Source: Niastella koreensis GR20-10 (GTDB lineage: Bacteria; Bacteroidota; Bacteroidia; Chitinophagales; Chitinophagaceae). From it: a stretch of DNA of 64,000 bases. Positions 5,056 through 63,271 of this stretch are shown here, piece after piece. The notes under the pieces were generated by a model, which had not been told where the DNA came from, searched no databases, and worked only from the letters and a program-made list of their open reading frames with translations. The stretch is taken from contig NC_016609.1 of NCBI RefSeq assembly GCF_000246855.1, positions 3,162,001-3,226,000 on the forward strand, in the 5' to 3' direction. Numbering within the stretch: position 1 is the first letter of the stretch; every line of letters begins with the position of its first letter. The position numbers and the translations under genes are program-made.

Positions 5056-5634
5056 ATGAATAATAAGATTGCTGATATCATCAAAGCATCGATCAGTACC
5101 AAAGAAACTATTTTAAAAGATCCCGTTTTATTGGGAACTATTGACGAACTGGCAAACATCATTACCAGCGCCCTGCGCAATGGTAACCGCGTATATTTCT
5201 GTGGAAATGGAGGTAGCGCAGCCGATGCACAACACCTGGCTGCCGAGTTCAGTGGCCGTTTTTATGCCGACCGGGAAGCATTGCCTGCAGAAGCATTGCA
5301 TTGCAACACGTCTTATTTAACAGCAGTAGCCAATGATTACAGCTATGATGTAGTATATGCCCGGTTAATAAGAGGTATTGGCTTAAAAGGCGATGTGCTG
5401 GTTGGTTTATCAACCTCCGGTAACTCAGCTAACATTTTAAAAGCATTTGAGGTGGCCCGCGAAAAAGGTATTATCACGGTTGGTTTTACCGGCGATACCG
5501 GTGGTAAAATGAAAACACTCAGCGATTACCTGGTAAATGTTCCTTCAAAAGATACTCCCCGCATCCAGGAAAGCCATATTATGTTAGGACACATCATATG
5601 TCAATTGGTGGAAGAACAATATTTCAATAAATAG
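5056..5634 (+). CDS. gmhA: Phosphoheptose isomerase
   Basis: 192 aa single SIS domain. The FCGNGGSAADAQHLAAEF motif near residue 50 and LSTSGNSANI near residue 118 are diagnostic of GmhA, which converts sedoheptulose 7-phosphate to D-glycero-D-manno-heptose 7-phosphate. The usual metal or catalytic His and Glu residues are present (QHLAAE and the late HxxxGHIIC region). Length is normal for the family. It is 21 nt after hddA. Its stop codon is followed at once by a word array. Confidence 0.93.
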   Translation: MNNKIADIIKASISTKETILKDPVLLGTIDELANIITSALRNGNRVYFCGNGGSAADAQHLAAEFSGRFYADREALPAEALHCNTSYLTAVANDYSYDVVYARLIRGIGLKGDVLVGLSTSGNSANILKAFEVAREKGIITVGFTGDTGGKMKTLSDYLVNVPSKDTPRIQESHIMLGHIICQLVEEQYFNK

Positions 5635-5691
5635 TTACAAGTTGCAGGGGAATTGGCATTGTTTTCCCATGTAACCTGAAACCTGCAACAG
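5634..5691. repeat. Two-arm word array, GTTGCAGG type
   Basis: The left arm GTTACAAGTTGCAGG starts on the last base of the gmhA stop codon. The right arm repeats the complementary words AACCTGAAACCTGCAAC. GTTGCAGG (5641-5648) and CCTGCAAC (5682-5689) are perfect complements. The same word set recurs at 8202-8299 and 31874-31936. Confidence 0.7.
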
Positions 5692-5707
5692 TGTATTGTA
5701 ATGATAA

Positions 5708-6421
5708 ATGTCCATGGCTATAAAAGAGTGCATAATTCTGGCTGGAGGTTTGGGTACAAGACTACGCAGCGCTGTCCCCGATTTGCCGAAGTGTATGGCG
5801 CCCGTAGCAGGCAAGCCTTTCCTGGCGCATGTTATAGGGTATTTTCAGCAACAGGGAGTTGAAAAATTCATCTTCTCACTGGGCTATAAATCTGAAGTAA
5901 TTCAGGATTACCTGGAAGCCGGATATCCCGGGCTGCAGAAACAATATGTAATTGAACAAGATCCATTGGGAACCGGCGGCGCTATACTACTGGCCTGCCG
6001 TAAGGCTACTGAAAAGAATGTACTGATCCTGAATGGCGACACCCTGTTTTCTATTCAATTACCGGCCCTTACTGCCTTTCATGAACAACACCAGGCGCAT
6101 TGCACGCTGGCGTTAAAGCCCATGCAGCATTTCGATCGCTATGGTGTGGTTGAGATTGCAGAAAACGGCGCAATAAAAAGCTTTAAGGAAAAGCAGTTTT
6201 ATGAAAGCGGTTTAATCAATGGCGGTGTTTATGCATTACAGGTAGCAACATTTTTAAAAGAAGGCTTGCCCGAAAAGTTTTCCTTTGAAAAAGATTACCT
6301 GGAAAAATTATATACCGTACGGCCTATGTTTGGCATTGTACAGGACGAATATTTTATTGACATCGGAATACCCGAAGATTTTGAAAAAGCGAACCGTGAG
6401 CTGGTTAATTCCGGTAAGTAA
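5708..6421 (+). CDS. hddC: D-glycero-alpha-D-manno-heptose 1-phosphate guanylyltransferase (nucleotidyltransferase)
   Basis: 237 aa NTP_transferase domain. The signature ILAGGLGTRLR with SAVPDLPKCMAPVAGKPF is followed by the metal site LNGDTLF near residue 105. Sugar-1-phosphate nucleotidyltransferases of this short type include HddC and RmlA/GlmU-like enzymes. The neighbours gmhA, hddA and gmhB favour HddC, making GDP-D-glycero-alpha-D-manno-heptose. An alternative ATG lies 6 nt further in. The nucleotide (GTP or another) is inferred from context. Confidence 0.85.
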   Translation: MSMAIKECIILAGGLGTRLRSAVPDLPKCMAPVAGKPFLAHVIGYFQQQGVEKFIFSLGYKSEVIQDYLEAGYPGLQKQYVIEQDPLGTGGAILLACRKATEKNVLILNGDTLFSIQLPALTAFHEQHQAHCTLALKPMQHFDRYGVVEIAENGAIKSFKEKQFYESGLINGGVYALQVATFLKEGLPEKFSFEKDYLEKLYTVRPMFGIVQDEYFIDIGIPEDFEKANRELVNSGK

Positions 6422-6433
6422 TAACCCAACGTA

Positions 6434-7052: not shown

Positions 7053-7058
7053 AATATC

Positions 7059-7148
7059 GCTGAACGCTAAAAGCTCACACCGAACGCAGTAAGAATTGAA
7101 TAAATGCGGTGTTTTTGCGTTAAGCGTTTCGCGTTAGGCGTTAAGCAT
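7059..7148. repeat. Two-arm word array, GCGTTAAGCG type
   Basis: The left arm reads GCTGAACGCTAAAAGC then CACCGAACGCAG. The right arm reads GCGGTGTTTTTGCGTTAAGC followed by further GCGTT words. Complementary pieces (ACACCG/CGGTGT, AACGC/GCGTT) would fold the leader of the downstream gene into a long hairpin. Confidence 0.65.
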
Positions 7149-7155
7149 TAAAAAT

Positions 7156-8202
7156 ATGAATAACCGTTATAGTAAATATTTTATTAGTTGCTGGCTGATA
7201 GTGATCGGCTTGATAGGTGTTGCCCCGGCTTTTGCACAGAAGATAGCTACGGCCGATAGCAAGGAATTATTGAAGAAAGAAGACTCCCTGCAGAAGTTGT
7301 CTGCGAATATGGTATTCAGTGAGGAGGCCGCCGACCGCTTTCGGTCAGATAGTATATTTACGCGCACCTTTGTGCGGGCGCTGAAAGTAAAGAACTCGTT
7401 TTACTTCCCCTTTGATTCGCTGAATATTTCAAAACTATATGCTCCTGATAGTGCGTTTCGCATCTTTACCTGGCAATTGAAAAAAGATGAGTATGTGTAT
7501 CTGCAGAAAGGGGCTATTCAAATGAATATGCCGGATGGTTCGCTGAAACTATTCCCCTTGTTCGATTATTCTATGTTTACTTCCAAACCATTGGATAGTG
7601 TGCGTACCCGTAATAACTGGATTGGCGCCATTTATTACAAGATCATACCTAAAGAATTCAACGGACAAAAGTATTATACCCTGTTGGGCTTTGATGATTT
7701 TAGTGTAAACAGCAACCGCAAATGGATGGAGGTGATGCACTTCAATGAGCGTGGAGAACCGGTTTTTGGTGGTTCGGTGATCTCATTTAAAGAAGATTCA
7801 GTTAAGAAGCCTGTACAGAACCGTTTTAATATTGAATATAAAAAAGAAGCAAAAACCTTCTTTAATTACGATCCCGATAAAGACATGATCGTATTTGATC
7901 ACCTGATCTCGGAAAGTAACGAACCGGAAAGAAAATCAACTTATATCCCCGATGGAGATTTTGAAGCTTTCAAATGGCAAAATGGCCAATGGGTGCATGT
8001 TGAGCGGCTCGATTTTGAATTTAAGCTGAAAGATGGCGACTTCCCCAAGGAATCAGCTATTTTAGATGACGCCGGTAACGCCAATGAACAGCGACTGGAA
8101 GAAGCTTCCCGCCGGAATATGGAAAAGGAAGCTGGAGGAATGCAGTCTCCTGCCACCAATACGCCGGCTAAAAAAAATACAACTCCCAAAAAGAAAAGTT
8201 AG
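7156..8202 (+). CDS. Secreted protein of unknown function
   Basis: 348 aa. The N-terminus has a signal peptide: basic MNNRYSK, a hydrophobic core, and AFA|QK as a likely cleavage site near residue 28. The mature part is rich in aromatic and charged residues with no motif I recognise. The C-terminus is low-complexity and basic (TPAKKNTTPKKKS). A periplasmic or outer-membrane-facing location is likely. It stands alone after the heptose operon with its own candidate promoter. The stop codon runs straight into a word array. Confidence 0.7.
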   Translation: MNNRYSKYFISCWLIVIGLIGVAPAFAQKIATADSKELLKKEDSLQKLSANMVFSEEAADRFRSDSIFTRTFVRALKVKNSFYFPFDSLNISKLYAPDSAFRIFTWQLKKDEYVYLQKGAIQMNMPDGSLKLFPLFDYSMFTSKPLDSVRTRNNWIGAIYYKIIPKEFNGQKYYTLLGFDDFSVNSNRKWMEVMHFNERGEPVFGGSVISFKEDSVKKPVQNRFNIEYKKEAKTFFNYDPDKDMIVFDHLISESNEPERKSTYIPDGDFEAFKWQNGQWVHVERLDFEFKLKDGDFPKESAILDDAGNANEQRLEEASRRNMEKEAGGMQSPATNTPAKKNTTPKKKS

Positions 8203-8299
8203 TTGCAGGTTACAAGTTGCAGAGCCTGCCCCGCCATAGCGGGATCTCAGGGCAATAATGATGGTTTTCCGGTAACTTGAAACCTGGAACCTGGAACCG
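8202..8299. repeat. Two-arm word array, GTTGCAGGTT type
   Basis: The left arm GTTGCAGGTTACAAGTTGCAG begins on the stop codon of the preceding gene. The right arm contains GGTAACTTGAAACCTGGAAC followed by a repeat of CTGGAACC. The centre holds a small CCGC/GCGG hairpin. It lies between convergent genes and may act as a terminator. Confidence 0.7.
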
Positions 8300-8304
8300 T
8301 GTCT

Positions 8305-11880: not shown

Positions 11881-12140
11881 ATCACAAAAACCTGGAAGGA
11901 AAAGTGATTGCCTGGCAGGAAATGGCTTATCCCGTTCGGAATTGAGAAAAGCCGGCAGATAATTACTTTTCCCGAAAGGAAATAACAAAACCCAACAGGA
12001 ATTATTAAATCCAGATGGGAAATAAGAAAACCCGGAGGGAAAGAACGTTTTTTAGCGGGAATTCTAAAAACCCGATGGGAAATACAAAATCCCGGTGGGA
12101 ATTCCGAATTCCCACCGGGTTATAAAAAATCCCCACAGGG
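11881..12140. repeat. 13-unit array with exact 20-nt period
   Basis: Thirteen consecutive units of exactly 20 nt without any indel. Each unit has an A/T-rich half (such as AATAACAAAA) followed by a GC-rich half (such as CCCGGTGGGA); the rough consensus is AATAACAAAACCCGGHGGGA. Units are strongly diverged in sequence but not in length. Units 11 and 12 are inverted relative to each other and form a perfect 13-bp hairpin at 12091-12119 (CCCGGTGGGAATT/AATTCCCACCGGG). A 20-nt period rules out translation as a repeat protein. Confidence 0.85.
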
Positions 12141-19987: not shown

Positions 19988-20004
19988 CGTGGATCGTCAA
20001 ATTG

Positions 20005-20163
20005 CAAATTTGATAATGTGATAATATGATAATGTGATAATGAAATACAGGTTCACGATACCCGGAGCGTGTGATTTTTATTTGCATAATAGCTTTCCAT
20101 TTTCCTATCTCTAATTATTCGTTTTTCCATTATCAAATTATCGAATTATCTAATTATCACATT
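20005..20163. repeat. Two-arm word array, GATAATGTGATAAT type
   Basis: The left arm (20010-20044) iterates TGATAATGTGATAATA. The right arm (20128-20162) iterates the complement ATTATCAAATTATCG. The right arm ends next to the stop codon of malQ. The same word returns at 52759-52788. Confidence 0.75.
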
Positions 20164-23330: not shown

Positions 23331-23377
23331 CTTTATTAAATATGTTTGCCAGTTGCTTATTGGCTATTGTCTATTGA

Positions 23378-24565
23378 CTACTGCGCCGCTCCCACAACCT
23401 GGGTCTCGGGCTTTTCAATAAAAATGGTCTGTTTTAATTTAACGGCAACGGTTTGCTCGTGTTTTACGGCCGGTGTCCATTGCGGCATGTTCTCAAACGC
23501 TTCTATCAGGTGATCGTTCAGGTCGTCGTTGCCGCCTTTGATTACATTGGCGTAGATCACTTTTCCTGCTTTATCAACCACAAACTCAACCATGGCAAAG
23601 GTTTTCTGTTGCTGGCCCAGGTAGGGCGCCATGTCTTTGCTCAGTTTATCAATAAATGCCTGGAATTTGTCGTTGCCACCAGGGAAAACCGGTAAGCGCT
23701 CCACTACAGTGGAAATCTCATCCTGGTTATACGTTTTCAACGGCCGGCGTTCTTTTTTCACCACCGGTTCCGGTTCCTTTTCTTTAGGAATAATGCCATC
23801 GATCACATACTCCCCTTTCTTCGACACCATGATCACCGGCAGCTTGCGGGTTTTTTCAAAATAGGTGTAGGCATGTTTCATTTCTTCCTCCAGCGGCAGG
23901 TATTCCGGAAAATCCTTTACATACTTTTTCAGGTATTCGCTGCTGCGGGGATTGTCGAAACGGATGGGGAAAATATGCACCGGAATGAAATCCTGTCCTT
24001 CACTTTTGGCGTGTGCGGCCAGAATGTACAATTCCTCAATCTGTTCGTTGTTAACGGGAATGCAACCTGTGGTTACACAACTGCCATGGATATATATATC
24101 GCCACCGGGCATCAGGGAATCACTGAGGATCCGGTCTGAGGCGTTGGGATAATTTAAACCCAGCGACAGGTGGTAATTACTTTTGGGGTTGAACTCATTG
24201 ATGTAATAAAAGCCTTCGGGTACCTGGTAATCGCCTGCCATGCGTTTGGGGCCCAGCGAACCGGCCATCGCGCATACCCGATAGGTTTTAAACAGGGCAA
24301 ACTTATCGTTCAGTTCCTGCTTAACCCAAACTTCTATCTGGCTGTCGTATTTAAAGGAGCGGATGTAAATGTAGCGGGCGGGCCAGGCTAACTTCTTCTC
24401 CTCAAACTGCTTCATCAACGTGTCTTCCTTTTTCTTCAGTGCATCGTTAATGCGCGGGAAGCCACGTTGGTAATCGATAAAATTAATACTGGTTGCTGCA
24501 GTTTGCGCTGAAGCTGTTTTTACAAGGCTTATGGCCCCCAGTAAAAGTATATACGCGTATCTCAT
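23378..24565 (-). CDS. L,D-transpeptidase-like (YkuD) protein with TonB-C-like domain
   Basis: 395 aa with signal peptide. Residues about 60-215 form a YkuD catalytic domain; the active-site motif HGSCVTTGCIPV has the expected His and Cys (HGxxxxxGC). Residues about 290-385 resemble the C-terminal domain of energy-transducer TonB proteins (VERLPVFPGGNDKFQAFI, then FVVDKAGKVIYANVI and MPQWTPAV). No membrane helix stands before the TonB-C-like part, so it is not a classical TonB. L,D-transpeptidases make 3-3 peptidoglycan cross-links or attach proteins to the wall. The TonB-C-like part could be a periplasmic binding module. This pairing looks unusual to me. Confidence 0.8.
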   Translation of the reverse strand: MRYAYILLLGAISLVKTASAQTAATSINFIDYQRGFPRINDALKKKEDTLMKQFEEKKLAWPARYIYIRSFKYDSQIEVWVKQELNDKFALFKTYRVCAMAGSLGPKRMAGDYQVPEGFYYINEFNPKSNYHLSLGLNYPNASDRILSDSLMPGGDIYIHGSCVTTGCIPVNNEQIEELYILAAHAKSEGQDFIPVHIFPIRFDNPRSSEYLKKYVKDFPEYLPLEEEMKHAYTYFEKTRKLPVIMVSKKGEYVIDGIIPKEKEPEPVVKKERRPLKTYNQDEISTVVERLPVFPGGNDKFQAFIDKLSKDMAPYLGQQQKTFAMVEFVVDKAGKVIYANVIKGGNDDLNDHLIEAFENMPQWTPAVKHEQTVAVKLKQTIFIEKPETQVVGAAQ

Positions 24566-27490: not shown

Positions 27491-27564
27491 CCGCCGTTCT
27501 GCCTGCCGTTCATCTCTTTTTAATACTCAACCTTAGGTAAAACATTAATTTTGCGGGCGAAATA

Positions 27565-27671
27565 CAACGTGAAACGTAAAACGTGAAACATGAAAGGGGG
27601 CCTGAAAATCGGAGTTCATCTCTGCTGGCCGGAGAACCCATTGGCTGTTTTACGTTTGCCGTTTCACGATT
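27565..27671. repeat. Two-arm word array, GTGAAACGTAAAACGTG type
   Basis: The left arm (27567-27594) iterates ACGTGAAACGTAAAACGTG. The right arm (27646-27671) holds GTTTTACGTTTGCCGTTTCA. A perfect 8-bp hairpin GATCCGCC/GGCGGATC follows at 27672-27691. The array lies in the leader of the efflux operon. Confidence 0.7.
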
Positions 27672-27714
27672 GATCCGCCGGTTGGCGGATCGCTTTAAAC
27701 TTATAACAACTCAG

Positions 27715-31866: not shown

Positions 31867-31873
31867 GATACAC

Positions 31874-31936
31874 GTTGCAGGTTTCAAGTTACAGGTTCAG
31901 GATTTTTCCTGAAACTTGCAACCTGGAACCTGTAAC
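31874..31936. repeat. Two-arm word array, GTTGCAGGTTTCAAG type
   Basis: The left arm GTTGCAGGTTTCAAGTTACA continues to 31900. The right arm CCTGAAACTTGCAACCTGGA continues to 31936. The words are the same as at 5634 and 8202. It sits inside the efflux operon between permease and TolC-like genes and could lower downstream expression. Confidence 0.75.
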
Positions 31937-33300: not shown

Positions 33301-33470
33301 ATTAAGTTTTTGAAATTTGGCAATTGGCCCGTAATCTGAGCAAATGGGGAACCAGTATTTCATGAATTGTATGCCGGAGCCGACCTTTTAACAAAAAAAA
33401 CTACAAGTTTTATTACCTATCTTAACGGCTCAAAATTCAAGGGGCAAAAATATAAAAACAGAGATCAGAA

Positions 33471-34016
33471 ATGAATGGACCACAAACCATAGACCACAAA
33501 CCACAAACTATTCAGGTTGGAATTATTATGGGCAGTGACAGCGATCTGCCGGTTATGCAGGCAGCAGCTGAGGTGTTGAAAAGCCTGAATATTGCTTTTG
33601 AATTAACGGTGGTGAGCGCGCATCGTACGCCTATGCGGATGGTGGAATATGCTACAAAAGCCCGCGGGCGGGGGTTGAAAGTGATTATTGCCGGGGCCGG
33701 CGGCGCCGCCCATTTGCCGGGTATGGTAGCTTCCCTTACGCCATTACCCGTGATCGGAGTGCCTATTAAATCTTCCAATTCTATAGATGGCTGGGATTCA
33801 GTATTGTCAATTCTACAAATGCCCAATGGCATACCGGTTGCTACTGTAGCGCTGAATGCGGCTAAAAACGCAGGTATCCTGGCTGCCTCCATTATCGGTT
33901 CATTTGAGGAACATATTGGGGATCAGGTGGCTGCCTACAAGAAGAAACTGGAAGAAGAGGTATTGGTAAAGATTGAAAATCTAAAAAAACAAGGGTGGGA
34001 AAACAAATTTGATTAG
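33471..34016 (+). CDS. purE: N5-carboxyaminoimidazole ribonucleotide mutase
   Basis: 181 aa class I PurE. The core starts [15 protein letters not shown], followed by SAHRTP (catalytic His), [11 protein letters not shown] and PIKSSN. It moves the carboxylate made by PurK. The first 14 residues ([14 protein letters not shown]) are encoded by a CACAAACC word array and are absent from usual PurE proteins, so the only visible start codon lies next to repeat DNA. An internal ATG inside the GIIMGSD loop would destroy the active site, so ATG 33471 or a non-ATG start near 33507 must be used. Confidence 0.94.
33479..33509. repeat. CACAAACC word array inside the purE start
   Basis: Three iterations of ACCACAAAC/ACCATAG within the first codons of purE. 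The same word builds the array at 42411-42540. Confidence 0.65.
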
Positions 34017-34983: not shown

Positions 34984-35065
34984 AGGCTAAAAGCCGAAAG
35001 CCTAAGGCTGAAAGCAAAACCCATATTCGCGGTTTTCAGCTTTGAGCTTTAGGCCTTCAGCTTTC
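34984..35065. repeat. Two-arm word array, AAAGCTGAAAGC type, entering bshC
   Basis: The left arm is GGCTAAAAGCCGAAAGCCTA continuing to 35017. The right arm CAGCTTTGAGCTTTAGGCCT continues to 35065. The bshC stop codon (35057-35059) lies inside the right arm, so its last Ser codon and stop are repeat sequence. The same words occur at 38969-39044 and 52145-52267. Confidence 0.75.
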
Positions 35066-37593: not shown

Positions 37594-37694
37594 TTGAGTT
37601 CAAAGTTCCGGGTTCAGCGTTCAAAGTCTCCGGGTCGCGGAACTTAGAACCTTACACTTGAAACCTGGAACTCGGAACTCTGAACTTGAAACTT
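37594..37694. repeat. Two-arm word array, GAACTT/AAGTTC type
   Basis: The left arm has GAGTTCAAAGTTCCGGGTTC. The right arm has ACTTGAAACCTGGAACTCGG and continues GAACTCTGAACTTGAAACTT. It ends 4 nt before the stop codon of the following minus-strand gene. Confidence 0.7.
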
Positions 37695-38968: not shown

Positions 38969-39044
38969 TGCAGGCTAAAAGCTGAAAGCCTAAAGCTAAA
39001 AGCGAATACAGCTTTAGGCTTTTACCTTTGGGCTTTAGCCCTGC
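38969..39044. repeat. Two-arm word array, GCTAAAAGCTGAAAGCC type
   Basis: Left arm: CAGGCTAAAAGCTGAAAGCC and TAAAGCTAAAAGC. Right arm: GCTTTAGGCTTTTACCTTTG and GGCTTTAGCCCTGC. The right arm abuts the stop codon of the epimerase gene (39044-39046). The word is shared with 34984-35065. Confidence 0.78.
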
Positions 39045-40112: not shown

Positions 40113-40210
40113 AAGTGAGTAGTGAGTTGTCAGTAGTGAGTGAACTCGCGATTATTTAGATTTCTGAACAATTAGGAACCCACTCACTACTCACACCTCA
40201 CTACTCACTT
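40113..40210. repeat. Two-arm word array, GTGAGTAGTGA type
   Basis: The left arm AGTGAGTAGTGAGTTGTCAG continues with TAGTGAGTGA. The right arm CACTCACTACTCACACCTCA continues with CTACTCACTT. Each arm is two or three copies of the same word, on opposite strands, 35 nt apart. Confidence 0.78.
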
Positions 40211-42410: not shown

Positions 42411-42540
42411 CTTTGTGGTAATTTAAGTATTTGTGGTTTTCGGTTTGTAGTTTGTGGTTAATACCTCAATTTTTAGACTGCCGCCATTAAGCGATCAGTT
42501 CGAACCTTGGAGTAACTACAAACCACAAACGACAAACTAA
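42411..42540. repeat. Two-arm word array, CACAAACC/GGTTTGTG type
   Basis: The left arm (42430-42460) iterates TTTGTGGTTTTCGGTTTGTA. The right arm (42512-42540) iterates CTACAAACCACAAACGACAA. The right arm reaches the rimO stop codon (42537-42539). The word is shared with the purE start. Confidence 0.75.
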
Positions 42541-43844
42541 ATAACTTCCCCTTCCAGATCGAAATCATACGCCTTAGTGATCTTCACATTTACAAATTCA
42601 CCAATAGGTAATTTTTTAGTGCTGTTAATGATCACTTCATTGTCTACTTCCACACTGTCAAACTCTGTACGGCCCAGGTAACGGCCCGATTCTTTTTTAT
42701 CGATCAGGGTCTTGAAGGTTTGTCCAACCTTTTCCTGGTTCTTTTCAAAATTGATCTCCTGCTGTACTTCCATGATCTCCTGGGCGCGGGCTTCTTTCTC
42801 TTCGTGTGGAATGTTATCTTCCAGGTCGTATGCAGTGGTATTCTCTTCGTGTGAATAGGTGAAGATGCCCGCGCGCTCGAAGCGGTGTTTTTGCAGGAAT
42901 GTTTTTAACGACTCTACATCCTCTCTTGTTTCACCGGGGAAACCGGCAATCAACGTGGTGCGCAAACCAATGCCGGGCACTTTTTCCCTGATGGCGCTGA
43001 TCAGCTCATTCATTTCCGACTGGGTTATCTGGCGCTTCATAGCCTTGAGCATATTATCACTGGCATGCTGCAGCGGCATATCCAGGTAATTACAAATGTT
43101 ATCGCGTTCACGCATTACATCCAGGATCTCTAACGGGAATTTAGAAGGATAGGCATAATGCAGCCTGATCCATTCCAGTCCTTTTACATCAGCCAGGCGA
43201 TTCATTAAATCGGCGAGCATGCGTTTTTTGTAAATGTCCAAACCGTAATAAGTAAGCTCCTGGGCAATCAGCATTACTTCTTTCACGCCTTTCTTCACCA
43301 GGCCTTCGGCTTCTTTCACCAGGTCTTCAATGCTGCGGCTTACGTGCTGTCCGCGCATCAGCGGAATAGCGCAAAACGAACAGGTACGGTTACAGCCTTC
43401 CGATATTTTCAGATAAGCGTAATGCCGGGGGGTGGCCAGTAACCGTTCGCCCAGCAGTTCGGCTTTATAATCTGCCTCAAATGCTTTCAGGATCAGCGGC
43501 AATTCCATGGTGCCGAAATAGGCGTCCACTTCGGGGATTTCCTGTTCCAGGTTGTTCTTGTAGCGTTCGCTCAGGCAACCTGTCACATACACTTTATCGA
43601 GCTTGCCGCGGCGTTTCAGTTCTACCTGGTCAAGAATGGTATTGATAGATTCCTCCTTGGCCTTGTCGATGAACCCGCAGGTATTTACAATTACGATGTT
43701 GTGATCTGATTTTTCATTCTCATGTATCACATCAATATCATTCGCCTGTAACTGGCCGCTCAAAACTTCACTGTCTACCATGTTCTTGCTGCAACCCAGC
43801 GTAATGATATTAACCTTGTCTTTTTTATGTGATCTTACTTTCAT
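42537..43844 (-). CDS. rimO: Ribosomal protein S12 methylthiotransferase
   Basis: 435 aa radical SAM methylthiotransferase. The N-terminal UPF0004 domain has NIITLGCSKNMVDSE with its Cys residues. The radical SAM cluster motif is SEGCNRTCSFCAIPLMRG near residue 140 (CxxxCxxC). The TRAM domain is C-terminal. LGCSKN and AIPLMRG favour RimO over MiaB. It modifies Asp in S12. ATG 43844 is chosen because the promoter at 43854-43884 leaves the longer start at 43856 upstream of the transcription start. Confidence 0.94.
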   Translation of the reverse strand: MKVRSHKKDKVNIITLGCSKNMVDSEVLSGQLQANDIDVIHENEKSDHNIVIVNTCGFIDKAKEESINTILDQVELKRRGKLDKVYVTGCLSERYKNNLEQEIPEVDAYFGTMELPLILKAFEADYKAELLGERLLATPRHYAYLKISEGCNRTCSFCAIPLMRGQHVSRSIEDLVKEAEGLVKKGVKEVMLIAQELTYYGLDIYKKRMLADLMNRLADVKGLEWIRLHYAYPSKFPLEILDVMRERDNICNYLDMPLQHASDNMLKAMKRQITQSEMNELISAIREKVPGIGLRTTLIAGFPGETREDVESLKTFLQKHRFERAGIFTYSHEENTTAYDLEDNIPHEEKEARAQEIMEVQQEINFEKNQEKVGQTFKTLIDKKESGRYLGRTEFDSVEVDNEVIINSTKKLPIGEFVNVKITKAYDFDLEGEVI

Positions 43845-43853
43845 ATAAGGGCG

Positions 43854-44546: not shown

Positions 44547-44565
44547 AAAGAGAATATAATTAAAT

Positions 44566-44596: not shown

Positions 44597-44612
44597 TTCA
44601 TTTATTAAGATT

Positions 44613-44717
44613 TTGGCAGACGGCAAACGGCAAACATCCGCGACGCGGCCCTCTATCAACTTCAACTTTATCAACCTGCTTCTTGGTTAACTGGTCAACG
44701 GATCAACTGGTTAACTT
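44613..44717. repeat. Word array, GTTAACTGGTCAAC type, entering ftsY
   Basis: GGCAAACGGCAAAC and TCAAC iterations lead into GGTTAACTGGTCAACGGATC and AACTGGTTAAC. The ftsY stop (44703-44705) lies inside the array, so codons for its last residues Leu-Thr-Ser and the stop are repeat sequence. Confidence 0.7.
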
Positions 44718-45930: not shown

Positions 45931-46020
45931 AATTTGAAAATGTGAAAATCAGCAAATTTGAAAATGTAATACACCTCAACGGATTTCGCACATTTTCACA
46001 TTTGCGCAATTTGCCAATTA
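45931..46020. repeat. Two-arm word array, GAAAATGTGAAAAT type
   Basis: The left arm AATTTGAAAATGTGAAAATC continues to 45968. The right arm holds GCACATTTTCACATTTGCGC and then AATTTGCCAATTA. The right arm includes the rpmG stop codon (46018-46020). It sits between two cotranscribed genes. Confidence 0.72.
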
Positions 46021-46200
46021 TTTAATTTCTTTATGAACCGTTACCTTTTTCAGGATCGGGTTGTATTTTTTCAACTCCAGACGTTCAGGAGTGTTCTTTT
46101 TGTTCTTGTTTGAAATATACCGGCTGGTACCAGGCAGTCCGCTATTTTTGTGCTCAGTACATTCCAGGATTACCTGAACACGGTTACCTTTCTTTGCCAT
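46018..46200 (-). CDS. rpmG: 50S ribosomal protein L33
   Basis: 60 aa. [19 protein letters not shown] and [20 protein letters not shown] match bL33. A single Cys is present and no CxxC pairs, so this is the zinc-free form. It lies between rpmB and the DUF4295 gene. Confidence 0.95.
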
Positions 46201-49204: not shown

Positions 49205-50110
49205 ATGAAACTGGCGGCGATAGATATCGGTAGTAATGCAGCACGATTGCTGATCTCGGATGTTATTCTTTCCAATAACAGAAGACCGCAATTTCAAAAG
49301 ATCAACCTTATCCGGGTGCCCCTGCGCCTGGGCTTTGATGTGTTTGAGAAACAAGCCATCTCAAAAGAAAAGGAAGACATGATCCTGAACACCATTAAGG
49401 CATACAAGTCACTGATGGATGCTTATGGCGTAGAACATTGCAAGGCGGCCGCTACCTCGGCCATGCGCGATGCTTCCAATGCTGATGTTATTCTTGACCG
49501 CATAAAGAAAGAAACCGGCATTGGCATTGAAGTGATCTCAGGCGATGCGGAAGCCTCACTCATTTATGAAAATCACATTGCAGAGAACCTCGATAAAAAT
49601 CACACCTACTTATATATAGATGTGGGCGGTGGCAGCACCGAACTGACCTTTTTTGCCAATGGCAGGCTTATATTTAAACGCAGTTTTAATATTGGCACCA
49701 TCCGGCTGCTCAAAAACCAGGTAGACGATTTCCTGTGGGGCGAAATGAAGGATTTTGTAAAGCGCGAAACCAAACCCTATCACGACCTGGTGGCCATTGG
49801 CAGCGGTGGCAACATCAATAAAATATTTTCCCTCTCCAAACGAAAAGAAGGCAAGGCCCTTCCCCTGCAATTATTAAAGGATTACTATAAGGAATTCAGC
49901 AGTTTTTCTGTGGCCGACAGAATACGCATTTATAAATTGCGCGAAGACCGCGCCGATGTGATCGTTCCTGCCCTGTTCATTTATGTGAACGTAATGCGCT
50001 GGGCCGGGATTGAAGAAATATATGTACCGAAGATCGGGTTAGCAGATGGATTGATCCAGCACTTATACGATGAGCTTAAGGAAAAAGGGAAGTTGATTTT
50101 GACTTCCTAG
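49205..50110 (+). CDS. ppx: Exopolyphosphatase / GppA-type phosphatase
   Basis: 301 aa, ASKHA fold. AAIDIGSNAARLLI (phosphate 1), YIDVGGGSTELTFF (near 137) and VAIGSGGNINKIF (near 195) are the family motifs. The short form lacks the C-terminal HD-like domains of E. coli Ppx. It hydrolyses polyphosphate and/or pppGpp. It starts 7 nt after ppk1. Confidence 0.93.
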   Translation: MKLAAIDIGSNAARLLISDVILSNNRRPQFQKINLIRVPLRLGFDVFEKQAISKEKEDMILNTIKAYKSLMDAYGVEHCKAAATSAMRDASNADVILDRIKKETGIGIEVISGDAEASLIYENHIAENLDKNHTYLYIDVGGGSTELTFFANGRLIFKRSFNIGTIRLLKNQVDDFLWGEMKDFVKRETKPYHDLVAIGSGGNINKIFSLSKRKEGKALPLQLLKDYYKEFSSFSVADRIRIYKLREDRADVIVPALFIYVNVMRWAGIEEIYVPKIGLADGLIQHLYDELKEKGKLILTS

Positions 50111-50112
50111 TA

Positions 50113-50215
50113 TAAGGTTCATAGGTTATTAAGTTATTGGGTTCTTATGTTTTCTGCAACTCAATAGCTTACCAACCTAATAACCTACTAACCTAATAAC
50201 TTACAAACCTGCAAC
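50113..50215. repeat. Two-arm word array, CCTAATAACC type
   Basis: The left arm AAGGTTCATAGGTTATTAAG continues to 50148. The right arm has CCAACCTAATAACCTACTAA followed by CCTAATAACTTACAAACC. It begins 2 nt after the ppx stop codon. Confidence 0.75.
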
Positions 50216-50386
50216 TTTCTCATTTACAGGCATTTCATTTATTCTGTCTCATTTTTTATTTACAGGATTTCATTTTACCTTAACTTAGCAACCGCTAACA
50301 ACTGCGAGGAGCATTAAATGTGTTTTATTCTAATGCAGAGCCATATTCCCTCCCGCCTTACTTACACAGCATAAAACTCCCAAAGT

Positions 50387-51208
50387 ATGTCGGTACACGT
50401 TAACAAAGAAGTTAAAAAGATAACGACCCATACGTTACAAAAAATGAAGTCTGTTGGAGAAAAGATCTCCATGATAACAGCCTACGATTTTTCCTTTGCC
50501 CGGATCTTTGATGAGGCCGGTATTGATGTAATACTGGTGGGCGACAGCGCCTCCAATGTAATGGCGGGTCATGAAACAACCCTGCCGATTACGCTCGATC
50601 AAATGATCTATCACGCCTCTTCGGTTATCCGGGGTATTAACCGTTGTTTTGTGGTAGTTGACCTTCCGTTTGGTACTTACCAGGCCAATTCAAAAGAAGC
50701 GCTGGCCTCTGCCATCCGCATTATGAAGGAAACAGGCGCACACGCCGTTAAACTGGAAGGTGGCGAAGAAGTGCTGGAATCGGTAAAACGCATTGTGGCA
50801 GCCGGTATTCCGGTTATGGGCCACTTAGGGTTAACACCGCAATCGATTTATAAGTTTGGTACCTATACGGTACGGGCACGCGAAGAAGCCGAAGCCAATA
50901 AGCTGCGCAACGATGCGAAGTTATTAGAGGAAGCTGGTTGCTTTGGCGTGGTGCTGGAAAAGATCCCCGCTGCTTTGGCTAAAGAAGTATCTGAATCGCT
51001 GGTAATACCTACCATTGGCATTGGCGCCGGGATGCATTGCGACGGCCAGGTGCTGGTTATGCACGACCTGCTGGGCATTAATACCGAATTTAAGCCACGT
51101 TTCTTACGGCAATACCTGAACCTGTATGAACAGATTGTGGGCGCCGTAAAGAATTATGTGCACGATGTGAAGGCTAAAGATTTCCCTAATGATAAGGAAC
51201 AGTATTAA
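50387..51208 (+). CDS. panB: 3-methyl-2-oxobutanoate hydroxymethyltransferase
   Basis: 273 aa TIM barrel. [40 protein letters not shown] and the catalytic region VKLEGGEE followed by [10 protein letters not shown] are PanB signatures. It makes ketopantoate for pantothenate/CoA. The stop codon is followed directly by a word array. Confidence 0.95.
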
Positions 51209-51255
51209 GTTTACAGGTTGACAGGTTAACGTGTTAATAGGTTAACCTGTCAACT
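51209..51255. repeat. Two-arm word array, GTTGACAGGTTAAC type
   Basis: The left arm GTTTACAGGTTGACAGGTTA and the right arm TAATAGGTTAACCTGTCAAC include a perfect AGGTTGACAGGTTAAC-type inverted pair. It starts on the base after the panB stop and ends 5 nt before the stop of the next, convergent gene. Confidence 0.78.
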
Positions 51256-52144: not shown

Positions 52145-52267
52145 GGAATACAGGGCAAAAGTAAAAAGGTAAAAGCTTAAAGTAAATCATATAGGTGCAT
52201 TCAATTAAACTAACTTTTCATGTTTTTTGCTTTAAGCTTTTGGCTTTGAGCTTTTAGCTGTATTCCT
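52145..52267. repeat. Two-arm word array, AAAGCTTAAAGC type
   Basis: The outer arms GGAATACAG (52145-52153) and CTGTATTCC (52259-52267) are perfect complements. The inner arms iterate AAAGTAAAAAGGTAAAAGCT and GCTTTAAGCTTTTGGCTTTG. The right end includes the first base or two of the stop codon of the following minus-strand gene. Confidence 0.75.
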
Positions 52268-52628
52268 ATTCTCTATTAGCTCTTCGTTGTTTAAACTCTT
52301 CTTTCATCTCTTTCTGGTTTGCTTTGTAGATTTTAAACTGGTCTTTTGTTAATACATCTTTCATTTGTTTGTCCCTGGTATTATTCAATGACTTGAACTT
52401 ACTGCGTTTGGACAATTTAGACTCGTTCGATTTCTTTAAGTCTGCAACGCCTTCAAACCAGGTGGTGTTGATGGCATCTACCTTTTTTGATTGATCTTCA
52501 GTGAGATTCAACTTTTGTTTTAGCTCCTGGTATTTAGCTTTTACTTCGTCCATTTTGTTTTGTGCAGACGCATTGGATGCCAGTATAACCAATACCAGCA
52601 TGACAGTGATTTTGATGATCCTTTTCAT
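52266..52628 (-). CDS. Small periplasmic Spy/CpxP-like protein
   Basis: 120 aa with signal peptide (MKRIIKITVMLVLVILASNA). The mature helix-rich part has LNLTEDQSKKVDAI and DVLTKDQFKIYKA, which resemble the LTxxQ motifs of Spy/CpxP chaperones, and a basic tail. An envelope-stress role is possible. It is just downstream of a LytTR two-component pair on the same strand, which may control it. An upstream ATG at 52643 adds five residues. Confidence 0.65.
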   Translation of the reverse strand: MKRIIKITVMLVLVILASNASAQNKMDEVKAKYQELKQKLNLTEDQSKKVDAINTTWFEGVADLKKSNESKLSKRSKFKSLNNTRDKQMKDVLTKDQFKIYKANQKEMKEEFKQRRANRE

Positions 52629-52758
52629 ATTTTTAGTTTCCATTTTTATACAAAGTACTCCATGCTTATAACATGGGTCATAGTAAATACTTTCAAGCTG
52701 ACAAGATTGCCGGTAAAACTGCTGATTTCAATTTTGAGCCAGCATAATGAGCGCCCCC

Positions 52759-52788
52759 CATTATCACATTATCGAATTATCACATTAT
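52759..52788. repeat. Word array, ATTATCACATTATCG type, entering the LytTR gene
   Basis: Three iterations of ATTATCACATT. The stop codon of the LytTR gene (52780-52782) lies within it, so its terminal Ile-Met-stop is repeat sequence. The word is shared with 20005-20163. Confidence 0.7.
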
Positions 52789-53550
52789 GCCTTGCATCCA
52801 TTCCCGGAACTTACCGGCCTTTGCTTTACTCACCAGCACAGGTTCTTCGGGGTTGGGTAATAAATGCAAACAAAACCGGCCATTGAAATAATGCTCGATT
52901 TCCTTGATGGCCTTGCGGCTTACCAGGAACTGTCTGTTGGCGCGGTAAAACGCTTCAGGATGTAATAAATCGGTCAATTCATCCAGGCTTTCTTCCAATA
53001 ACCAGTGCTTTTTATCGAATGTAATGCCGCGTACTATCCCACCCTTTATTTCAAAAAAAGCAAAGGCAGAGGCCTGTACAGGTATCAGGCGGTCTTTATG
53101 CGGGATAAGGAAATGGCGTTTATAACTGCTTGCTCTTGTTATTTCCCGGGTTATCTGTTGTAATTGTTGTTCAGGAAGCAGGCTTTGTTTCCGGTCATTA
53201 AGACGTTGGAACTTGTCCAGTGCCTGCTGTAATCTTTCTTTCCGTAGCGGTTTTAATAAGTAGTCGATGCTGTTTACTTCAAAGGCCTTGATGGCATATT
53301 GATCGTACGCGGTGATAAAAATAATAGGGACCTCAATTTTACATTGCTGAAAGATGGAAAAGCAGGCGCCATCGGCCAGGTGAATATCCAGGAAGATAAG
53401 GTCAACGGCGGGGCTGTTGCCCAGCCAGGCAACTGATTCTTCCACCGTATCAATAACAGCCACCACATCGGCAGCAGGCAGTGTTTGGGGCAACAGGCTT
53501 TTTAATTGTTGCACCGCCCTTTCTTCATCTTCTATAATTGCAATTTTCAT
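52780..53550 (-). CDS. LytTR-family response regulator
   Basis: 256 aa. The receiver domain has IAIIEDEERAV and DLIFLDIHLADG (phospho-acceptor Asp near residue 55), with KPLRKERL late. The C-terminal LytTR DNA-binding domain starts near 150 (KRHFLIPHKDRLIPV) and includes YRANRQFLVSRKAI. It follows its kinase by 6 nt and probably binds direct repeats upstream of target genes. Confidence 0.92.
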   Translation of the reverse strand: MKIAIIEDEERAVQQLKSLLPQTLPAADVVAVIDTVEESVAWLGNSPAVDLIFLDIHLADGACFSIFQQCKIEVPIIFITAYDQYAIKAFEVNSIDYLLKPLRKERLQQALDKFQRLNDRKQSLLPEQQLQQITREITRASSYKRHFLIPHKDRLIPVQASAFAFFEIKGGIVRGITFDKKHWLLEESLDELTDLLHPEAFYRANRQFLVSRKAIKEIEHYFNGRFCLHLLPNPEEPVLVSKAKAGKFREWMQGIM

Positions 53551-61123: not shown

Positions 61124-61705
61124 TTACTGATTGCTGTTTTCTGGAATGGAGACAGCATGCTCTATTGCATGCTGAAATATTGACTGTACGGAGTTGGCGC
61201 CGTATTTTATTTCATTGGAAGCAAAAGGAAGCAATTGCTTTAAGATGGGTTTTACATCTACCCTTTTTGATTCACAGAACCGTACCAGGTCGCCGAAATA
61301 GATCATTTCATCGCGGGCATCCGCTTCCAGGTTCCTGGCTTCAAACAACAGCAGGCTCAGCACCAGGTATTCATGGCTACCGCTTTTTATATTTTCTTCC
61401 AGTTCCGCAAACGTTGGGTTGATGTAATTCTTTAGCCGGTTGGTGTCGTTCAACATGGCGTCTATTGACTGCAGGTCTTTAAATGAATTGGCGGCTAATG
61501 CCTCCCCTATCGTCCGGCGAATAAAAGCCAGCTCCGGGGCTATCTTTTTTCGGTATTCCGATTCAATGGTGCGCATTTCTTCCACCCAGCCATCTTTGGT
61601 AAAATCAATGCGGCTTTCCTTGGCCCGCAATTCATCTACATACCTGATGGTTATTTCTTCATCGATCATTTCAATTTTAGACCTGACAGAACTCATGTTT
61701 TCCAT
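61124..61705 (-). CDS. Unrecognised helical protein in the Rhs cassette (adaptor-like)
   Basis: 193 aa, acidic, all helical, no signal peptide. Segments such as EEMRTIESEYRKKIAPELAF and EYLVLSLLLFEARNLEADA suggest a helical bundle. It lies 23 nt upstream of the Rhs gene, where T6SS clusters often encode an effector adaptor or chaperone. No family name was recognised; the adaptor role is inferred from position. Confidence 0.6.
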   Translation of the reverse strand: MENMSSVRSKIEMIDEEITIRYVDELRAKESRIDFTKDGWVEEMRTIESEYRKKIAPELAFIRRTIGEALAANSFKDLQSIDAMLNDTNRLKNYINPTFAELEENIKSGSHEYLVLSLLLFEARNLEADARDEMIYFGDLVRFCESKRVDVKPILKQLLPFASNEIKYGANSVQSIFQHAIEHAVSIPENSNQ

Positions 61706-61765
61706 ACTGATGATTTTAAGGATGATGTACCTGGATGCTATTTACTGGTTTATTGTTTGTGATTG

Positions 61766-63130
61766 CTATGAAACCATTATTTCACCTGCATTGGCCTGCC
61801 TGATCTTTTTCTTTGTATAATTCTGTTTTAATTCTTCAATAGTTTGTTGCCAGTTGGCTCCATAGGCGGCGAGCATTTTATGGGTCACTATTTCTGCAAG
61901 GCTGTCTTCTTCGTGCTGTTGCAGCTGCACATAGTCATACGCCATAAAGGGATACTCGGAGGCCTGGATTTCTTCATCGGTCAGCTGGTTGGTGAGTTGT
62001 AATGCCTGTTTACCCGCCTGGAGTTTTTCTTCCTTCCAGCCTTTGTAGTCGGCGAAGATCCAGGCTTTGTAATAGGCAGATACTGCCTGCGAGGCAAAGC
62101 CAAAGACCACTGCTTCATCACCGGCTTTCATAAACCATTCCAATGCTTCTTTTCTCTCTTTCTGGATCTGGCAATCGGCCCCTTTGTAGGTATAATATTG
62201 CAACAACAAAGGTTTTATGGATTCATTGCCGGCGGCAACTTCCTGTTTACATAACCTGATGCCGGTATCCAGCAATTCATTGATGCGTTCGTGGTCTTTA
62301 AAATTGAACAGCATGCCGGCAAACGTGATGTAAGCTGTTGCGAGTAAACTTTTATCGCCTGTCTTCATCCCGCACTCGATGGCTTTCCCGCCCCATTCTG
62401 CCAGCAGGGGTTTGTTTTTCTTATTGGCGGCCGTTCCCATTTCGAACATACATTTCCTGAAAAATGCATAGGGATCGGTAGCTGCGCCGGCTGTTGCAAT
62501 CTGCCTGATGGCATCCTGCATCCGCAGGTCGTGTTTCAGCGTAACCGCATGATCGGCATAGTTTTCAAAAACGTCGCCCGAGAAATTACCTTCTTCATGA
62601 TCAAACACCAGTAATTGAATACCGGGTTGTTTGGGCTGCTGCATCCACTGCCGGATCCATTGTTGAAACGTATCGGGACTGCTCATTTGTTTTGGCAGCA
62701 GGGCTAATACAAACTGCGCATCAGGCTGTCCGATAAAATGTCTGTAAGATTGGATCATGCCGGGTAACAACAGGTCGCAGGCTGCATAGTCTTTTTCGGC
62801 TACCGCCTTTCTAAGCGATGCTACTTCCCAAACGCCTTTGCCAGCATGGACCAGCAGCTTTTGATTTTGCTCATCGTCGTATTCATTCAACCAGTTTTGC
62901 AAGAGGGCATGACTGTAAGTAGTTGCCTGGTTGAAGGGTGTATAAAAGAATACAAACAGGTTATCGAGTTTTCCGTGTGGCGATGCCTCCAGGCGGCAAA
63001 ACCCTTCGTACATACGATGGTCTTCCGGCTTCAGCATCCAGCGGATAAGGTAATGTTGCGGTTGCACGTTCATTTTCCAAACCTGCACCATTTCGTCTAT
63101 TCTTACAGCAATAGGATTATGTTCGTTCAT
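61766..63130 (-). CDS. TPR-like protein in the VgrG-Rhs cassette
   Basis: 454 aa. The N-terminal half (1-200) is mixed alpha/beta with WVL-type aromatic stretches. The C-terminal half (about 215-430) has repeated helix pairs with TPR spacing (KPLLAEWGGKAIECGMKTGD, LLDTGIRLCKQEVAAG, KEALEWFMKAGDEAVVFG). It probably helps load the Rhs effector onto VgrG, but no direct motif proves this. Confidence 0.6.
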   Translation of the reverse strand: MNEHNPIAVRIDEMVQVWKMNVQPQHYLIRWMLKPEDHRMYEGFCRLEASPHGKLDNLFVFFYTPFNQATTYSHALLQNWLNEYDDEQNQKLLVHAGKGVWEVASLRKAVAEKDYAACDLLLPGMIQSYRHFIGQPDAQFVLALLPKQMSSPDTFQQWIRQWMQQPKQPGIQLLVFDHEEGNFSGDVFENYADHAVTLKHDLRMQDAIRQIATAGAATDPYAFFRKCMFEMGTAANKKNKPLLAEWGGKAIECGMKTGDKSLLATAYITFAGMLFNFKDHERINELLDTGIRLCKQEVAAGNESIKPLLLQYYTYKGADCQIQKERKEALEWFMKAGDEAVVFGFASQAVSAYYKAWIFADYKGWKEEKLQAGKQALQLTNQLTDEEIQASEYPFMAYDYVQLQQHEEDSLAEIVTHKMLAAYGANWQQTIEELKQNYTKKKIRQANAGEIMVS

Positions 63131-63159
63131 AGTTAAGGTTGCTTAATTTTCAGACTCAT

Positions 63160-63271
63160 AATTCGTGAAACGTGAAAGGGCCCGCGATAATTCGGTGCTT
63201 CGTGTTAACCTGTCAACCTGTTAACTTTTCAACCTTCTTCTTCCTTTATCAACTCTATCAACGTTATCAAC
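63160..63271. repeat. Word array, GTTAACCTGTCAAC/GTTGATA type, entering vgrG
   Basis: GTGAAACGTGAAAG (left), then GTTAACCTGTCAACCTGTTA and iterations of TATCAAC up to 63271. The vgrG stop codon (63267-63269) and its last Cys codon fall within the TATCAAC words. Confidence 0.7.

Follow-up and report, generated by a model that had tools for sequence, protein, structure and literature searches.

Many of the gaps between genes in the genome of Niastella koreensis GR20-10 contain short arrays in which a word of 7 or 8 nt is iterated, in many cases with a complementary second arm nearby. These arrays are probably the terminal inverted arms of small stem-loop elements, comprising masters that encode a PF05635/TIGR02436 protein (IVP or S23p, the rRNA intervening-sequence protein, which is Avd-like) and short non-autonomous copies, an organisation like that of RAYT genes and REPINs. 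On sequence evidence, some of the short arrays look like the ends and worn-down copies of IVP-carrying small mobile elements. The window analysed here is a stretch of 64,000 nt of contig NC_016609.1 (positions 3,162,001 to 3,226,000), and coordinates below are those of the window.

Iterated words in gaps and at gene ends

An earlier note, made from the letters of this DNA, described gaps with iterated-word arrays and a second, complementary arm, and the description is borne out. A period-7/8 score with a threshold of 9 detects 26 arms in the window, whereas 10 dinucleotide shuffles yield 0.6 on average and never more than 1. For many of these arms a complementary partner lies no more than about 100 nt away. 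The 250 gaps of a 464-kb sample match themselves with z values of 15, 7, 13 and 20 at lags of 7, 8, 14 and 21, respectively. A sample of spaced places covering 1.264 of the 9.034 Mb of the genome contains 156 arms of period 7, 89 of period 8, 12 of period 9 and 11 of period 11; the remaining periods have 1 to 3 arms each, and shuffles about 1 each. Arrays are present in about a quarter of the gaps (179/713 in this 14% of the genome). Coding sequence is nearly free of them (2 arms in 316 kb at a threshold of 10), gene models being those of a simple hexamer caller written for the analysis. The arms are degenerate tandem 7-8-mers, mostly parts of inverted elements, and like long simple sequence repeats they consist of 5-11-nt units iterated beyond chance. 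The short form of the element has two arms around a core (median 23 nt) and no gene. Perfect long expansions of the arrays are also present.

The recurrence of words at distant loci of the window, also claimed previously, stands as a recurrence of word families; several of the exact words and positions quoted for it do not. An exact copy of AAAGCTGAAAGC is found only at 38978. The word CACAAACC is exact at 33481 and 33495, and at 32809 on the other strand, but not at 42411, and GTTAACCTGTCAAC is exact at 51217/51241 and 63204 but not at 44613. Short elements with the word GTTNCAR lie at 5641..5690, at 8202..8298, starting inside the stop of 7156-8202(+), and at 31869..31936, just past the stop of 28774-31866(+). 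Those with AAAGCTN lie at 38974..39043, before the stop of 39044-40045(-) and with AATACAG just inside the arm, and at 52145..52266, overlapping the stop of 52266-52643(-); AAAGCYN is the word at 34984..35065, where the element adjoins an intrinsic terminator and overlaps the stop of 35057-36652(-). The word GATAATGT forms a short element at 19999..20163 and a single arm at 52759..52788, which overlap the stops of 20163-22874(-) and 52780-53550(-), respectively.

Further short elements carry GTTTGTGG (42420..42547, overlapping the stop of 42537-43856(-)), GTTGACAG (51209..51254, starting at the stop of 50387-51208(+)), AGTTCAG/AGTTCCG (37597..37694), CGTGAAA (27556..27679), GCGTTAA/CGCTGAA (7058..7151) and GAAAATGT (45931..46027). 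The element with GGTTATTA at 50111..50214 starts at the stop of 49205-50110(+), and several relatives have other words at this place. An array of GTTAACCT and CTATCAACG at 63203..63271 enters the stop of 63267-63980(-). Arms of GGCAAAC and GGTCAACT at 44615..44716 lie beside the intrinsic terminator 44553-44612. Single arms of TATTGGC and AACTAAG are found at 23358..23383, overlapping the stop of 23378-24565(-), and at 18..55.

That arrays abut or enter stop codons, as was noted for the window, holds for the genome sample, in which array positions peak at -3 to +6 nt from stop codons. Within tandem gaps of at least 120 nt, the start of the arm falls between -3 and +6 relative to the upstream stop for 29 of 133 arms vs 6.2 expected; the figures for convergent gaps are 9 of 36 vs 2.9, and for the equivalent place relative to the starts of divergent gaps 0 of 23 vs 1.4. 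We considered and rejected the arrays as suppliers of stop codons. Arms read inward contain 650 stops vs 536 expected, and antistops are equally raised (466 vs 384), so the arms are not specially enriched in stops. None of the three frames stays open in 34 of 192 inward-read arms vs 9 in shuffles (outward 10), which we attribute to composition and to a period coprime to 3.

Their placement near stops and their strong folding (81/99 with z below -3) are what would be expected if the arrays were mRNA 3'-end hairpins, terminators or stabilisers, that are maintained by selection with words free to drift. This function was raised as a possibility in the earlier note and is very unlikely in light of the other evidence, although the arrays may have some effect on mRNA. 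The 10 nt after arrays contain 3.2 T vs 3.6 in the mirror control, unlike the T tract of an intrinsic terminator; 6 or more T are present in 8 vs 16 of 99. Intrinsic terminators are not commoner in array gaps (9/97 vs 55/368). Mismatches within the arms have no sense-strand G-U bias (105 vs 95, p = 0.52), and RNA-level selection on the arms was rejected on this ground. Moreover, 29 of the 49 array-bearing orthologous gaps of two genomes of the genus, G006 and G007, have the array in one species only.

IVP genes bordered by arrays

Long inverted pairs of the same word led to genes of the PF05635/TIGR02436 family. The identity of the encoded protein is supported by matches to PDB 2GSC (E 1.7e-26) and TIGR02436 (E 3e-39); the protein of one locus (L333) has a below-cut-off match to Avd (E 5e-5), and that of another (L340) has no Avd match. 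From 72 PF05635 matches in the genus we used 58 loci, leaving out ten weak, partial or duplicate matches and four copies at one orthologous place (gap 24), which were looked at apart. Arrays lie within 200 nt on both sides of 41 of the 58 loci and on at least one side of 54. The inverted flank score is above all 30 shuffles at 56 loci and at least 3 above the best of them at 53. Among 204 size-matched control genes of the window's genome, 5 have arrays on both sides, 46 on at least one side and 7 strong inverted flanks, with scoring against the best of only 10 shuffles and thus by an easier test than for the IVP loci. For the 27 best-scoring loci outside the genus, arrays flank both sides in 9 cases and at least one side in 19, with strong inverted flanks in 12 and scores above all 30 shuffles in 19; the corresponding control genes (n=165) number 0 for both sides, 7 for at least one side and 1 for strong inverted flanks. 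A protein-gene stop is near 51 of 53 IVP elements, and 35 of these 51 are within 15 nt of it, a count without a control set. No rRNA was found at the 58 loci and about 1.5 kb on each side, where Rfam identifies three tRNAs only.

A search of 50 Bacteroidota genomes recovers the IVP family in 47, and 14 control genomes yield no match; the distribution of arrays among Bacteroidota is patchy. IVP copy number is correlated with array counts over 41 named genomes (rho 0.40, p 0.010), with input figures transcribed by hand from three separate counts and arrays counted at one locus of about 21 kb or less per genome. Within the genus the correlation does not reach significance (rho 0.56, p 0.11). In the one stretch examined per genome, many genomes that have more than one IVP gene lack an array.

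Within the window, a decayed PF05635-type gene remnant is identified at 33349..33468 on the forward strand by tblastn with the IVP of genome G003 (45% over 40 aa, E 7e-5). At the orthologous place the IVP gene is open in G003, G005, G006 and G007 and truncated in G002. The period-7 array of CCACAAAC at 33479..33508, on the same strand, is read as the right arm of the decayed element, and its translation now forms the N-terminus of protein 33471-34016, which we take from its sequence to be PurE. A complete short element with the word GTGAGTA (40113..40210) lies directly at the stop of 40211-41692(-). Both of its inner ends resemble the ends of an IVP element in G009 (L406), with scores of 22 and 15, and the gap 40046-40210 has no match among phage records that would point to a phage origin. 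The word of the element at 37597..37694 is similar to that flanking an IVP locus of G000 (L378).

The words follow the protein. IVP pairs of the same cluster from different genomes have similar words in 36 of 64 cases, pairs of different clusters in 23 of 1352, and 2000 label permutations give no more than 9 similar-word pairs within clusters; the clusters are probably largely orthologous places, so that descent adds to this agreement. Words agree in 46 of 152 pairs of orthologous gaps that contain no IVP. The inner ends of IVP and short elements form 27 pairs at a score of at least 15 vs 3.4 in shuffles, including both ends of 40113..40210, with 18 of the 26 pairs listed belonging to one family (GTGAGTA); a first comparison with badly set edges was little above shuffles. 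The motif AATACA is at the inner edge of 22 of 282 array arms vs 2.4 in shuffles (18 consensus words, some of them near-variants) and at 23 of 97 IVP ends vs 1.8. Of 462 arms sampled in nine congeners, 192 have a match among the IVP arms of their own genome; 8 reassignments to another genome give 121.5 on average and 154 at most. The own-genome IVP set, which differs in size between genomes, is best or tied best in 6 of the 9. In the window's own genome (G000) only 77 of 262 arms have such a match and the IVP arms of G003, G005 or G007 match more, which lowers our confidence in the IVP loci as masters.

Numerous arms, and some abundant words as well, lack a matching IVP in their own genome. 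These observations, and the position of IVP elements themselves at stops, would suit IVP genes that are passengers, inserting preferentially into array-bearing gene ends or homing to arrays; the association would be real and the words would not be spread by IVP. Against this stand the arrays on both sides of IVP genes, inverted and with the word typical of the cluster, and we regard this explanation as unlikely.

Turnover of words and a proposed mechanism of spread

The words form species-specific families, one of which has 847 matches in one congener and 0 in two others. This count and those for GTTTRTN, GMTRATNN and GTTNCAR are of overlapping three-unit matches, not of elements. In the four genomes where the gap-24 IVP gene is open and has GTTT-word arms, GTTTRTN has 441, 399, 199 and 164 matches, compared with 45 where that gene is truncated, 5 where it is decayed and 1, 12 and 4 where it is absent; the gap-24 arms of G003 (GTTTCTGG) do not fit the strict pattern. 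GMTRATNN has 403 matches in G002, 468 in G005 and 68 in G003. No IVP with this word was found among the loci examined, and a related word, GMAAATNN, is present in the same IVP cluster of G003 and G005. Similarly, GTTNCAR has 199 matches in G000, a genome in which no IVP flanked on both sides by GTTNCAR units was found. A vocabulary shared across the phylum was rejected, as GTTNCAR occurs in 12 of 198 genomes and its backwards control pattern in 17, so that words look arbitrary outside a genus. A constant anchor with a hypervariable spacer was withdrawn after a contiguity test and an allele-count control.

Orthologous gaps often carry different words. Together with the species-specific families and the ties between words and array-flanked PF05635 genes, this supports the earlier suggestion that words are actively written or moved close to the ends of genes. 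Growth in place by pure replication slippage, with the 7 nt set by the polymerase (an idea attributed to Mrazek et al. 2007 in excerpts of PMC4679880) and IVP genes as bystanders, would account for the dominance of periods 7 and 8 and for the perfect long expansions. Units differ from one another in a way that resembles ordinary mutation, with a transition fraction of 0.463 vs 0.503 between orthologous gaps, and a count of distinct alleles reveals no bias by position (824 vs 824.4). Slippage does not account for inverted second arms, cores common to several elements, a word with hundreds of matches in one species and 0 in its sister, or IVP genes bordered by inverted arrays with words that agree by cluster, and as the whole explanation it is improbable.

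The REPIN-like layout raises the question of whether the arrays are REPINs moved by RAYT or another Y1/HUH transposase. Y1 genes are present in all 10 genomes of the genus, and a subclass-1.2-like TnpA in G000 adjoins an array. Such TnpA genes are found in 25 of 48 genomes and are absent from the array-rich Olivibacter and Tamlana; Olivibacter lacks a PF01797 match and the only one in Tamlana is interrupted by two stops, the completeness of these genomes not being given. None of 21 scanned subclass-1.2-like loci outside the genus has a period-7/8 array (8 further frameless loci were left out), and a RAYT-like gene (L097) has no array flanks. An HUH/Y1 mobiliser as a general requirement was rejected on the evidence of Olivibacter, Tamlana, the distribution of TnpA and the 21 TnpA loci, and REPINs moved by such a transposase are very unlikely.

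If the arrays are instead arms of IVP elements, each IVP locus would be the master of its word family, as RAYT genes are of REPINs. The IVP protein would bind its cognate hairpin and, with a polymerase, reverse transcriptase or recombination partner, might help copies to arise at other gene ends. Ordinary slippage would then lengthen and shorten the arms in steps of 7-8 nt, and they would be eroded by point mutations of the ordinary kind. Gene ends would be favoured because insertion there is either targeted or least harmful. By-eye inspection of presence/absence pairs revealed no target-site duplication clean enough to call.

Relationship to known systems

The earlier note knew of no named family that matches the arrays. 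This is close to correct; among named elements, the rRNA intervening sequence and its S23p ORF come nearest. As described in excerpts of PMC4990558, this is likewise a small element whose complementary borders form a stem, it encodes the protein family found here in the long form, and it has been called parasitic or selfish. The same excerpts give S23p proteins as without known function and cite Ralph and McClelland 1993 for a proposed role of the ORF in mobility. rRNA intervening sequences are inserted in rRNA and excised from the transcript by RNase III. The elements described here differ in lying at protein-gene ends, in having arms of iterated 7-8-nt words with many word families per genome, and in the large number of short derivatives that lack the gene. 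The open-licence literature searched contained no account of an IVP gene with word arrays at its flanks; excerpts of PMC5524665 name four-helix-bundle genes without such repeats. Excerpts of PMC10053308 describe a resemblance of PF05635 to Avd, which is essential to the reverse transcriptase-driven retrohoming of diversity-generating retroelements, a class with template and variable repeats.

REPINs and REPs with RAYT, according to excerpts of PMC6006769 and PMC3733652, are also dispersed short palindromes at gene ends that sometimes provide stop codons, with a low-copy protein gene flanked by cognate repeats; here IVP would take the place of RAYT, although a large part of the arms matches no own-genome IVP. 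The IVP protein is a four-helix bundle and not an HUH transposase, and the arms are degenerate tandem words that vary by family. The REPIN palindrome is fixed, with a GTAG or CGTC foot. The heptanucleotide repeats covered by excerpts of PMC4679880 (LSSRs, and TAACTGA of Beggiatoaceae, Cyanobacteria and five Bacteroidetes) share the period of 7, the intergenic position, the patchiness over phyla and some overlap with ORF ends. They are reported mainly as direct repeats of one word, with one inverted repeat noted, and in the main genome most of them precede start codons. The text of PMC4679880 contains neither the term four helix nor the term intervening sequence.

Drosophila Foldback transposons have long inverted ends composed of short tandem subrepeats in variable number. 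Unlike the arrays here, they are eukaryotic and far longer, and their proteins are unrelated.

The link between IVP genes and arrays offers a partial explanation for the heptanucleotide repeats and hints at a system organised like REPINs around a protein of another kind. Each cluster of the S23p/IVP family is now linked to repeat words, which gives direct access to a family without known function. We tentatively raise the possibility, which we hold to be less likely than not, that across Bacteroidota the IVP/S23p proteins determine the mobility of a class of elements that has no transposase. Each clade would recognise its own 7-8-nt iterated word as a hairpin and copy it to gene ends, probably assisted in trans by a polymerase or reverse transcriptase, much as Avd works with its reverse transcriptase, seeding many short derivatives, and the rRNA intervening sequence would be an odd outpost of this class.

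Abundance and structure of the word arrays

The window makes up 64 kb of a single-contig genome of 9,033,684 bases and holds 26 arms in which a degenerate word is iterated with a period of 7 or 8 nt, against 0.6 in shuffles. Many of these arms have a complementary arm close by. In a larger sample of the same genome (1.264 Mb in 61 stretches, the window among them; gaps of at least 25 nt), an array was present in 117 of the 450 gaps between tandem genes, in 40 of the 121 between convergent genes and in 22 of the 142 between divergent ones. The period was 7 nt for 156 arms of this sample and 8 nt for 89. Arms beginning -3 to +6 nt from a stop codon numbered 29 in tandem gaps (6.2 expected) and 9 in convergent gaps (2.9 expected). 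Arrays are nearly absent from coding sequence. By eye, an array apparently lies in frame within a coding gene, not at its end, in each of two Pedobacter genomes (L229 17197-17229 and L233 16910-16935).

Two-arm elements were extracted (n = 110), with a median left arm of 34.5 nt and a median core of 23 nt, and 81 of 99 fold strongly (z < -3). Among the 72 tandem-gap elements no side is favoured, the better array being the 5' arm in 34 and the 3' arm in 33, and no sense-strand G-U bias was found among arm mismatches (105 vs 95). No T tract was found 3' of the elements. Transitions account for 0.463 of the differences between neighbouring units, compared with 0.503 in orthologous gaps, which is an ordinary mutation spectrum, and allele counts revealed no position bias. 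Array units thus behave as tandem duplicates that decay through point mutation.

The window also contains other repeats. A separate tandem family (42-nt unit, 4.7 copies, with AACTGAAA...TTTCAGTT palindromes) occupies 46673-46868, in the gap preceding the gene at 47044. At 12057-12119 the 20-nt repeat GGGAATTCCAAAAACCCGAT precedes a perfect 14-nt inverted repeat; similar-looking sequence occurs at locus L037 8214-8348.

Spread and turnover of word families

The arrays form families that have spread and are subject to turnover. Counted as overlapping three-unit matches in whole genomes, GMTRATNN has 847, 720, 468, 403, 244, 68, 26, 1, 0 and 0 matches in ten genomes, in which the same pattern written backwards has none. 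GTTTRTN has 441, 399, 199, 164, 45, 12, 5, 4, 1 and 0, and its backwards control at most 9. The 16-nt core of the GTTTGTGG family is present in 17 copies in G003 and 21 in G005 (9 of them in tandem runs), and was not found in the genome of the window. Similarity between cores exceeds that of shuffles (score of at least 18 in 9 of 1770 pairs vs 0). Of 282 arms, 22 carry the motif AATACA at the inner edge (2.4 in shuffles), and these cover 18 consensus words.

Turnover is visible at orthologous gaps. Between G006 and G007, two genomes of the genus with a median gene identity of 86%, 109 such gaps carry arrays in both genomes (20), in one only (29) or in neither (60), and the word is the same in 15 of the 20. 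Across nine genomes and 14 gaps, the gap at window 33301-33470 excluded, 152 genome pairs have arrays at an orthologous gap, and 46 of these pairs share the word. At the orthologues of the window's 40046-40210 gap, three genus genomes have a GTGAGTA-like word and six a GTTTGTGG-like one, next to a flank that is mostly conserved. Here the core of the GTTTGTGG element looks inverted between G006 and G007, as if it had flipped through its arms. At 50111-50386 several differing words begin at the stop codon across nine genomes, and the remainder of the gap is conserved.

Beyond the genus, a looser scan that also accepted periods of 10 and 11 covered 80 loci of named Bacteroidota, each no longer than about 21 kb, and found at least one array in 25. 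Flavihumibacter, Olivibacter and Aquiflexum had six per locus, Larkinella and Tamlana three, and three Pedobacter loci one or two each. By eye, several begin in or at a stop codon. Among 198 genomes of the phylum, GTTNCAR is present in 12, fewer than the 17 that contain its backwards control, so the words look arbitrary outside the genus.

IVP genes between inverted arrays

Same-word pairs 300-600 nt apart were inverted in eight cases and direct in two (of 38 pairs). In G003 and G005, such an inverted pair at the gap orthologous to window 33301-33470 encloses a PF05635 gene encoding an IVP, the S23p protein of rRNA intervening sequences (IVS). The G003 protein (133 aa) is 84% identical to that of G007, 82% to G006 and 58% to G005; the gene is broken in G002, and a 40-aa remnant persists in the window. 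At the neighbouring gene (33471-34016), which we take to be PurE-like from our own reading, an array arm encodes the first residues, and the start varies among species of the genus.

Of 50 genomes searched, 47 have a PF05635 match, which is absent from all 14 control genomes. We examined 58 of 72 matches in nine genomes of the genus, plus 27 loci from other genera. Genus loci have arrays on both sides in 41/58, on either side in 54/58 and strong inverted flanks in 53/58, compared with 5/204, 46/204 and 7/204 control genes. The corresponding values for other genera are 9/27, 19/27 and 12/27, compared with 0/165, 7/165 and 1/165. In eight fully read loci the end of the upstream gene is followed by an array, the IVP gene, an inverse array and the next gene, and 35 of 51 genus elements having a stop nearby lie within 15 nt of it. 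No rRNA was matched at any of the 58 genus loci.

IVP proteins clustered at 58% identity have typical words, including GTTGACAG, GMTRAT/GMAAAT, GTTTNTGG, GTGAGTN, GTTACC, AGGCAACA, GGCAGAC, GAAGTAAG and AGTTNNN. Within clusters, 36 of 64 pairs taken from different genomes have similar words, compared with 23 of 1352 pairs between clusters. These clusters probably correspond for the most part to orthologous positions, and descent therefore accounts for part of this agreement. GTTTRTN is abundant in all four genomes in which a GTTT-armed IVP element has an open gene; the GTTT-type IVP arms of G003 do not meet the strict pattern. GMTRATNN abundance agrees with the IVP elements in G000 (the window's genome), G006, G007 and the zero-match genomes, the exceptions being G002, G005 and G003. 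With all genomes pooled, 192 of the 462 arms match an IVP arm of their own genome, against a mean of 121.5 (maximum 154) with IVP sets reassigned. In G000 alone 77 of 262 arms do so, and the IVP sets of three other genomes equal or exceed this. Short elements of the GTGAGTA family (including window 40113-40210) share inner-end sequence with the IVP elements L406 and L379, as would result from deletion of the gene with its flanking ends kept; such pairs are few in other families.

Known systems and a candidate copying mechanism

The rRNA IVS elements, as PMC4990558 describes them, encode S23p between complementary borders, so that protein family and borders are common to both systems. The arrayed elements differ in lying at protein-gene ends, in their iterated-word arms, in the pairing of cluster and word, and in the swarm of gene-less copies. 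These four features appeared in none of the open-licence PMC literature searched and are apparently new. Outside Bacteroidota, genomes rich in heptanucleotide repeats occur among Cyanobacteria, and PMC4679880 names Xanthomonas campestris for such repeats; the same species supplied the IVP structure, according to PMC4990558.

An HUH transposase as a general requirement is excluded by the array-rich Olivibacter, to the extent that the Olivibacter assembly can be taken as complete. A Y1 TnpA with subclass-1.2-like motifs (DHMH, YLDKQEEHH) lies among apparent aromatic-biosynthesis genes at L089 1435-1863 (minus strand); full-length PF01797 matches of this kind occur in all ten genus genomes, and it looks domesticated. 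Between two genes, L098 (G009) holds a RAYT-like gene with REP-like repeats on both sides and L095 (G004) a degraded copy; these repeats are a family distinct from the word arrays.

Avd is the partner of the reverse transcriptase in diversity-generating retroelements, according to PMC10053308. The IVP protein resembles Avd, and one such protein (from L333) gave a below-cut-off Avd hit; this likeness suggests that a reverse transcriptase or polymerase may assist in trans. We consider it fairly probable that the arrays are the terminal parts and remnants of stem-loop elements that encode an IVP, in an organisation resembling that of RAYTs and REPINs. Low-copy master IVP genes, some of which occupy corresponding positions in several species, would then give rise to many non-autonomous copies, and the IVP protein would drive the copying together with a reverse transcriptase or polymerase acting in trans.
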